64,000 bases of DNA from Nitrososphaeria archaeon. GTDB taxonomy: Archaea; Thermoproteota; Nitrososphaeria; Nitrososphaerales; JAAOZN01. The DNA lies in NCBI GenBank assembly GCA_029775855.1, contig JARVJZ010000003.1, forward strand, positions 1 through 64,000, given 5' to 3'. A program made the translations under genes and the position numbers. Positions within the stretch are counted from its first letter, which is position 1. Each line of letters begins with the position of its first letter. Positions 1 to 3,451 of the stretch are shown here, in pieces. The notes under the pieces were generated by a model. It saw only the letters and a list, made by a program, of their open reading frames with translations, searched no databases and was not told the DNA's origin.

Positions 1-84
1 CAAGATGGGGGGTAGCACCACAACCAACAGCAGAAAGCCTTAAATCAAACCCAAAACCATATAATGGAGCGAGAAAAAGAGTCG
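1..84. other. Sequence preceding the CRISPR array (possible leader end)
   Basis: No repeat copy, not even a degenerate one, is visible here, although a further repeat would be expected within 34-44 nt if the array continued. Because the degenerate repeat lies at the other end of the array, this side is the probable leader-proximal side. It is not clearly the A/T-rich low-complexity sequence typical of leaders. No gene is visible, and most of any leader would lie outside the window. Confidence 0.4.
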
Positions 85-3000
85 GAATCTCACATAGAGA
101 ATTGAAAGTCCTGAGCCAAATCTTCTTCAGACATCAAAACTTAAGCAGAATCTCACATAGAGAATTGAAAGATATCGTTGAGGAAGACATTCCGAAACTC
201 GCGATTCACAGAATCTCACATAGAGAATTGAAAGTCTCTTGTGGCATAAGCGAGTCTAAGGCTTTAGTGTATGGAATCTCACATAGAGAATTGAAAGAAA
301 GATGATCCTCGACCCCTATGACCACAATATTATTGTGAGAATCTCACATAGAGAATTGAAAGCAGCGGCTGAGAGCCAGTGAAGATCGAGATATACGTGT
401 CGTAGAATCTCACATAGAGAATTGAAAGAATAAAGGCAGAGGAGCCTCTTGTTTTTACTACCAAAGAGAATCTCACATAGAGAATTGAAAGTTGGATGCA
501 TCACACCAAGCAGAAACTTCATCTAACCAGAATCTCACATAGAGAATTGAAAGATGTGAGATTCTAGTCTTTACAAATTACACTTTCAGAATCTCACATA
601 GAGAATTGAAAGTTTTTAGGTAGTAGTGTTGCTAGTTTCTTCATGTATGCTGAATCTCACATAGAGAATTGAAAGTAGATAGCAGAGCCACTATGTTTAT
701 CATAAGTCACTCGAATCTCACATAGAGAATTGAAAGTAATCGGAGAAGAAGAAGACCTCAAAACAAAACTAGAAGCAGAATCTCACATAGAGAATTGAAA
801 GTTATGAATTCCACGGGTTTTAGAATAACAAAGTATTCGTAGAATCTCACATAGAGAATTGAAAGGTAAAAGTTTACTTTTTACAGTTTTTCTAAAAAAC
901 ACATAGAATCTCACATAGAGAATTGAAAGACCGTTTGACATAGATCTTCCATAAAAAGAGAAAAAGACAGAATCTCACATAGAGAATTGAAAGTCCTTTA
1001 CTAATCTCAATATAGTCTGTTTAAAGGTCTCCCTCGAATCTCACATAGAGAATTGAAAGATCGCTTTGTATAATGTTTGGTCAAGTTAATAAACGCTGAA
1101 TCTCACATAGAGAATTGAAAGTGACTATGAGCATTTCTATCGGTGGGTATGCGGAGCATACGGAATCTCACATAGAGAATTGAAAGCAAACTTCGGTGCC
1201 TCTATTTCTCTAGGTGTGAATTGAATCTCACATAGAGAATTGAAAGTAGCTAACTCACTTCTTCTCGTTTGGAGTGCTGAGATGAATCTCACATAGAGAA
1301 TTGAAAGAACCACTCAAACCGCTTGTGATTAGAGCACCAACGCACGAATCTCACATAGAGAATTGAAAGTCCCTAATCTCATTTCCATAAAGTGGGAGGC
1401 TACAATTCCTGAATCTCACATAGAGAATTGAAAGAGTTTCTATTTGCATCATGTTTATTTTTATTTCTGTTAGGGAATCTCACATAGAGAATTGAAAGAG
1501 TTCCAGGTATTCCGGTGCCTCTCACTCTTCCTCTTGTTGAATCTCACATAGAGAATTGAAAGGTGACGTTGGTTAGTTCTTTGCAATCTTTGCAGTATAA
1601 CTGAATCTCACATAGAGAATTGAAAGTCTGAGGTAAGGAGCCCCGGTAGGAAAACCCCGTATTCGAGAATCTCACATAGAGAATTGAAAGTCAAACTACT
1701 CGCCCCTCAACCTGAGCTTTTAGCTTGGGAATCTCACATAGAGAATTGAAAGTCCTTGTCAACCGAATAGTCAAAATCCACTGGAATCAAGGAATCTCAC
1801 ATAGAGAATTGAAAGACAACATCCTCTAACCCATATTCTTCAGCAAATTTTAAAAGAATCTCACATAGAGAATTGAAAGCCTACACCCTTTTTAGGTGGT
1901 GCGATATAAATATGGTGAATCTCACATAGAGAATTGAAAGAAAGCTTGGGGGGCGGCGGAGACGCGTAAAACAAGGGTGAATCTCACATAGAGAATTGAA
2001 AGTCCTCGGTTAAGCCTTCGTTGAGTAAATCAACGGTCGAAGAATCTCACATAGAGAATTGAAAGTACTTCCGACACCTCTTTAAAAAAACAGCACATGG
2101 AATCTCACATAGAGAATTGAAAGCAGCATACTTCACTCGAGTCGCTTCATTAACAAGTTTAAGAATCTCACATAGAGAATTGAAAGTTCTGAACACTTCA
2201 GGAAAGTTCTCAAGTAGAAGGAGAGAATCTCACATAGAGAATTGAAAGATAAGATGAGTTCAGAGGAGCTTGAGGAAACGCTTAGGAATCTCACATAGAG
2301 AATTGAAAGGATCATCATCTTATCTTCCAGACCATATAGAATCTATGAATCTCACATAGAGAATTGAAAGCATCTTCCGTGTTAGGTTCTCTTAAGCCTA
2401 AATATTGGGAATCTCACATAGAGAATTGAAAGATACTATAAGAAGGTTATTCCAGCTCATCAAAGAAGATCAGAATCTCACATAGAGAATTGAAAGGCAG
2501 CTACATTTGAAATATATAGTGAGTTGCCTCGACCACGGGAATCTCACATAGAGAATTGAAAGTAAGTCGTCAGCCACGACTCCACATCCGCACTTGAAAT
2601 GAATCTCACATAGAGAATTGAAAGTGCGGCTTGCCCTGCTCTATCTACGGTTATGTGTAATGAATCTCACATAGAGAATTGAAAGTTTTGAGTTTTGATA
2701 AGGTGTATAGTGCTATGTGTGTTGCTAGAATCTCACATAGAGAATTGAAAGACACCATTAAGGTGCGGGGTTAAGCACCGTAAGCGCCGAGAATCTCACA
2801 TAGAGAATTGAAAGACACAAAAGTAGCCGTATTCTTTCAGGAAATAAAGCTTATATTGGAATCTCACATAGAGAATTGAAAGCATAGCCACAGACCTTAC
2901 ATTTCATTTCTCTTTTCGCAACGAATCTCACATAGAGAATTGAAAGAATGACCCTATAGTAGGCTGCTCTCGGAACATTACCAAAGAAAGAATCTCACAT

Positions 3001-3451
3001 AGAGAATTGAAAGTCCACTGCTTCAGCCCCCTCCTTCACAGCCTCCACAGCCCGAATCTCACATAGAGAATTGAAAGTCACCAGATACACCGTTATTATT
3101 AATCTGTTTTTGCCGAATCTCACATAGAGAATTGAAAGTAGAAGTTGAGAACGTTGTTGAGGGTCGTTAATTTGAAGAATCTCACATAGAGAATTGAAAG
3201 ATAACAAGCCATTTGCGGTCACTTGAATGGTGCATTGAAGAATCTCACATAGAGAATTGAAAGAACGTAAATCAGCAAACAATCACAACTGAACAGTCAA
3301 AAGGAATCTCACATAGAGAATTGAAAGCCGTTTTATCTGAGCCCTTCGGCTTCGCAGTAATAGCTTGAATCTCACATAGAGAATTGAAAGATTAAGTGAA
3401 AGCTTTTTCAAGAAAGTGTAGATGGCTAAATCTCATATAGAGAATAGGTTC
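85..3451 (+). CRISPR. CRISPR array, 53 perfect 24-nt repeats plus one degenerate terminal repeat
   Basis: The repeat GAATCTCACATAGAGAATTGAAAG occurs 53 times without a mismatch, with first copies at 85, 148, 211 and 274 and the last at 3367. A decayed copy lies at 3428-3451. Spacers are 34-44 nt and all different. The repeat can form a TCTC-ACATA-GAGA stem-loop directly followed by ATTGAAAG, the classic 8-nt 5' handle of archaeal type I/III crRNAs, so the + strand is the crRNA sense. The terminal copy keeps the TCTC/GAGA stem but has lost the handle, which marks the trailer end. No cas gene lies in the window, so the subtype cannot be assigned. Uniform repeats suggest the array is maintained. 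Track ORFs inside the array (ISHRELK or FNSLCEIL motifs) are artefacts of the repeat. Confidence 0.98.
554..588 (+). other. CRISPR spacer 8 with inverted repeat fragments at both ends
   Basis: This 35-nt spacer begins ATGTGAGATTC, the exact reverse complement of the first 11 nt of the repeat, and ends CTTTCA, the reverse complement of the repeat terminus TGAAAG. Read on the minus strand it is repeat-end, 18 unrelated nt, repeat-start. In the precursor RNA, 530-540 can pair with 554-564 over 11 bp and enclose the handle in a 13-nt loop. See findings. Confidence 0.9.

Follow-up and report, generated by a model that had tools for sequence, protein, structure and literature searches.

A CRISPR spacer that begins with an inverted piece of its own repeat, and its possible capture from a CRISPR array, in a Nitrososphaeria archaeon

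The eighth spacer of a type I-A CRISPR array in a Nitrososphaeria archaeon starts with an exact, inverted 11-nt piece of the array's own repeat, cut in the register that the protospacer-adjacent motif (PAM) of the system would demand. We give roughly an even chance to the proposal that this spacer was captured from a CRISPR array that uses this same repeat, in which case it would comprise 11 nt of inverted repeat and 24 nt of an adjoining spacer that is now absent. An array origin is the likely reading of the evidence, and spacer 8 is accordingly treated here as a likely rather than an established member of this class.

Organization of the array and of spacer 8

The window, i.e. the whole 64,000-nt stretch of DNA analysed, begins within the leader of a CRISPR array. 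The leader end (positions 1–84, forward strand) is at the contig edge, and the same leader is found upstream of the other arrays, sharing an identical 101 bp with C2:1-101 and matching the leader of array C5 at 96 %. The array itself (85–3390, forward strand) consists of 53 perfect 24-nt repeats, GAATCTCACATAGAGAATTGAAAG, and 52 spacers of 34–44 nt. The genome (1.5 Mb in 6 contigs, 98 % complete) contains five arrays with this one common repeat, approximately 300 units in all, and a congener carries about 104 further repeat units. The 398 spacers of this genome and the congener were used as the comparison set, and genome-level comparisons were made on extracted stretches and by pattern searches.

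Several variants of the repeat were also detected. A degenerate terminal repeat, AAATCTCATATAGAGAATAGG, is located at 3429–3450 of the window, downstream of the last perfect repeat. A solitary CRISPR-repeat-like unit, TAATCTCAAAAAGAGAATTGAAAG (G000:C3:69980-70003; L024:7981-8004), is located between genes outside the window; it differs from the array repeat by three mismatches and is perhaps the relic of another array. In the congener (G002, C100; L028), the repeat at about 4903 on the minus strand is expanded by 14-nt units, GAATCTCACATAGA-GAATATCACATAGA-GAATCTCACATAGA-GAATTGAAAG. The repeat has two GAAT motifs, between which slippage would leave such a pattern. Identical spacers within one array were found in L019 (spacers 45 and 51) and L021 (spacers 13 and 22).

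Spacer 8 (554–588, forward strand; 35 nt, the eighth counted from the leader) is flanked by repeat 8 (530–553) and repeat 9 (589–612), both on the forward strand, and reads ATGTGAGATTC-TAGTCTTTACAAATTACA-CTTTCA. Its 5' part, ATGTGAGATTC (554–564, minus strand), is the exact reverse complement of repeat nt 1–11; the middle 18 nt (565–582, no strand assigned) are present as a single copy in the genome; and the 3' end, CTTTCA (583–588, minus strand), is the exact reverse complement of repeat nt 19–24, a match that we judge to be coincidental. The initial annotation had described two inverted repeat pieces around an 18-nt middle, and its coordinates and letters proved exact throughout. A contiguous 11-nt piece of repeat thus runs up to the repeat boundary and is followed by unrelated sequence, as expected for a fragment captured from an array. 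Spacer 8 has a normal length, and the repeats on either side of it are also normal and keep the phase of the array. In-place inversion of a repeat was ruled out by the intactness of both flanking repeats, and a tRNA origin was rejected: GAATCTCACAT occurs in the T-arm of some tRNAs, but the GTTC that precedes it there is absent from spacer 8.

CRISPR type and PAM

Effector genes csa5-cas7-cas5-cas3'-cas3''-cas8a and the regulator csa3 were identified on C4, and the adaptation genes csa1-cas1-cas2-cas4 adjoin array C5. The gene set that marks type I-A (csa5, cas7a, cas5a, split cas3, cas8a and csa1) was recovered in the PADLOC matches on C4 and C5, and a search for a Cas10 palm domain found none. 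By its gene content, the system is type I-A and is predicted to target DNA.

As these spacers have no known viral origin, the PAM was read from spacer pairs whose overlap points to one invader or to two related ones, and the partner spacer supplied the upstream flank of the later one. The eight informative cases, for which the overlap score cut-off of 12 was fixed after the list had been seen, gave GCT, TCA, CCT, TCC, CCC, TCA, TCA and CCC, with weaker overlaps at L025 spacer 10 and L023 spacer 3. The motif YCN was present in seven of the eight (p ~2e-6 by composition), in agreement with the published type I-A PAMs, CCN and TCN (PMC8482600).

Read in inverted orientation, the repeat divides as CTTTCAATTCTCT/ATGTGAGATTC, with TCT, a valid YCN PAM, directly before the start of spacer 8; the source position that array capture implies therefore has a correct PAM. 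Among the 14 registers that permit an 11-mer, only three have a YCN PAM. With TCT ahead of the 11-mer, spacer 8 starts at a point where a repeat/spacer junction would be open to cutting by the adaptation machinery.

Comparison with chance

The frequency of repeat fragments was estimated under a first-order Markov model built from the spacers themselves, and all the match forms that were scored had been picked after spacer 8 was seen. The 11-mer of spacer 8 is the longest repeat fragment among the 398 spacers, the next being of 10, 9 and 8 nt. A repeat 11-mer anywhere in a spacer, on either strand, has a probability of 2.6e-4 per spacer, or about 0.1 expected in 398, whereas the 11-mer of spacer 8 flush at the first base of a spacer has one of 3e-7 per spacer. 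The probability of CTTTCA as a spacer end is 5e-4, and a start-anchored fragment in any register combined with a reverse-complement repeat end is expected ~1e-6 times over the 398 spacers. The anchored form of the match is thus more than chance, whereas the loose form, anywhere in the spacer, is only suggestive. The verdict on chance hinges on whether the anchoring matters, to which the PAM gives a partial answer.

Spacer 22 of the L022 array and spacer 42 of the L023 array also begin with ATGTGA or ATGTGAG, in the inverted-repeat register of spacer 8, with about 0.1 such starts expected; these starts are possibly a coincidence.

Origin of spacer 8

Capture from an array would account for the 11-mer, its position and its register. 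In the proposed course of events, an array with a nick or a free end, either the cell's own or that of a related cell or element, would release DNA fragments, from which the Csa1/Cas1/Cas2/Cas4 module would pick one beside the PAM TCT within the inverted repeat. Insertion at the leader end would then be normal, and both flanking repeats are indeed perfect. Type I-A interference would act against cells that retain the source junction, and the source spacer would be lost through recombination between repeats, or might never have been present in this cell. The predicted source junction is a spacer ending ...TGTAATTTGTAAAGACTA, followed by GAATCTCACAT. Loss of this source is to be expected: with its valid PAM, it would expose the cell to self-targeting. 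Deletion of spacer-repeat units is known, with recombination between repeats as the presumed route (PMC8047081).

Self-derived spacers from active CRISPR loci in Pyrococcus furiosus, and from near CRISPR loci in Haloferax, are reported in work cited in PMC7521656. Like those of the P. furiosus and Haloferax volcanii adaptation experiments, as that article outlines them, spacer 8 plausibly represents array DNA taken by the Cas1/Cas2/Cas4 module with a matching PAM. In its outline, however, those cases are experimental hotspots with a known source, whereas spacer 8 is one natural spacer with its source missing.

None of the 301 repeat junctions of the genome could be identified as the source: the closest matched spacer 8 at 25 of 35 positions, approximately the chance level (0.24 such sites expected). 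The middle 18 nt had no other copy within two mismatches in the genome or congeners and no exact copy in 60 relatives, in which scattered matches with one or two mismatches occurred at about the rate of a reversed control. A scan of GTDB contigs for the repeat and for the junction also returned none. The anatomy, the YCN PAM, the PAM-correct register, the I-A genes and the normal insertion are observed, whereas the release of fragments, their selection at the TCT, the loss of the source and the identity of the source are inferred. The initial annotation had listed acquisition from another array among its explanations; this is the likeliest origin, to which the PAM register adds support. Assuming capture rates of 1e-5 to 1e-4 per spacer, array capture is favoured over chance by roughly 2:1 to 20:1 before a penalty for the missing source; the probabilities that we attach to the individual explanations are judgements.

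An ordinary virus or plasmid protospacer, both ends of which resemble the repeat by chance, is a possible but somewhat doubtful alternative. In its favour, about 0.1 repeat 11-mers are expected anywhere in the 398 spacers, and spacer 8 has one open frame, CEILVFTNYTF. A further argument for this explanation comes from the runner-up, spacer 49 of array C5, in which a 10-nt fragment of the repeat is part of GAATTGAAAG, 18 nt ahead of the next repeat, so that the spacer shows a TGAAAG-N18-repeat geometry. An independent spacer of array C2 overlaps C5 spacer 49 on the opposite strand, with 25 exact nt in common, and then runs into repeat-free sequence; joined, the two give 55 nt with an open frame. 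The repeat-like piece of C5 spacer 49 is thus ordinary invader sequence, and long chance matches do occur here, which counts against array capture, as does the CTTTCA end that array capture leaves to coincidence. The two further ATGTGA starts may likewise count against it, if this seed is common among protospacers generally. The chance explanation is opposed by the 11-mer being flush with the spacer start in a PAM-correct register, and by viral contigs that yielded no protospacer of spacer 8, even in a codon-degenerate search. The missing source in itself says little, since none of the other spacers of the window has a convincing match in phage records either. If chance is the answer, spacer 8 is a caution against taking repeat-like spacer ends for mini-arrays.

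A further candidate source of spacer 8, which we consider unlikely, is a mini-array or solitary repeat on a virus or plasmid that serves superinfection exclusion or acts as an RNA anti-CRISPR; the repeat pieces would then enclose an 18-nt insert, and the host would be targeting a decoy. Virus mini-arrays are present in hyperthermophilic archaea (PMC6858448), and solitary repeats act as RNA anti-CRISPRs (PMC10651486). Both ends of spacer 8 match repeat boundaries in phase, and the AT that would come after CTTTCA fits the mostly A or T second position downstream of other protospacers. The resemblance to virus mini-arrays lies in repeat pieces that flank a short stretch, but for spacer 8 neither a virus nor a leader nor a complete repeat was found, and the spacers of these arrays are all far longer than 18 nt, none of the 398 having this length. 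With RNA anti-CRISPRs it shares repeat-derived sequence outside a normal repeat, but it is inverted, is located in a host array and contains no complete repeat. In IMG/VR contigs, the repeat was absent, and a looser version gave one match, which was not an array repeat and was not convincing. These viral contigs thus contained neither a virus with at least one complete repeat nor a repeat mimic in a mobile element, where such units usually follow a promoter. Sixty-three viral matches to TGAAAG-N-GAATCTCACAT were found, none with a full repeat around it. Scans of viral sequence with the middle 18 nt, half spacers, the reverse-complement junction and codon-degenerate forms gave nothing or matches with unrelated flanks. 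The searches with the middle of spacer 8, which the initial annotation had recommended, and with its halves thus left no match that survived inspection or extended past the query, and its proposal of a viral mini-array or anti-CRISPR repeat is not supported by IMG/VR. In addition, C5 spacer 49 has the same geometry without a mini-array. A fragment cut at the TCT of its junction would carry the same two ends as spacer 8, and the two ends are therefore no evidence of a mini-array. A search for short spacers in 300 genomes of the order recovered only two, C5 spacer 49 and one of 29 nt in the congener. An assembly or amplification artefact, such as a chimera formed by fold-back where repeats are dense near the end of a contig, is very improbable. 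The array does adjoin a contig edge, and a run of N is present in another array, but spacer 8 is of normal length between normal, in-phase repeats, and fold-back would not leave both of these repeats perfect.

Returning to capture from an array, a cut at a PAM in the cell's own repeat would mean that the arrays themselves feed adaptation in this type I-A system of an archaeon, which is uncharacterised, and that autoimmune captures can persist once their source is lost.

Predicted hairpin and properties of crRNA 8

Hairpins of spacer 8 with the flanking repeats were present in silico. When the 398 repeat–spacer–repeat units were ordered by stability, the spacer-8 unit took rank 12 at 37 °C, rank 13 at 60 °C and rank 33 at 75 °C; by this modelling, the hairpin is real but unexceptional and fades at 60–75 °C. 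The predicted Cas6 stem of repeat 8 was 0.005 at 37 °C, compared with a median of 0.549, and 0.055 at 75 °C, compared with a median of 0.058, a temperature at which hardly any unit folds the stem. The earlier proposal that a hairpin disrupts the Cas6 stem therefore holds for the predicted hairpin and for 37 °C, where the stem is abolished, but not for 75 °C, where the stem is at the median.

Spacer 8 is complementary to array DNA and to the precursor, as had been pointed out. The sequence TCT-ATGTGAGATTC occurs 302 times in the genome, and crRNA 8 has a PAM and a contiguous match of 11 to 14 nt at every repeat (~300), a repeat-wide match that the initial annotation had not mentioned. At its own locus, which is protected, the preceding bases are AAG. 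The crRNA is probably near-inert, but with this PAM and a seed match of at least 11 nt it may dwell on the arrays. There is a slight chance that spacer 8 has recorded a viral repeat-bearing decoy, the host having immunised itself against a CRISPR mimic, or that, whatever the origin of the spacer, crRNA 8 is held at the ~300 repeats and influences adaptation at the arrays of its own cell. Because each repeat offers it a PAM-supported seed, crRNA 8 represents a natural test of seed-only binding to arrays.
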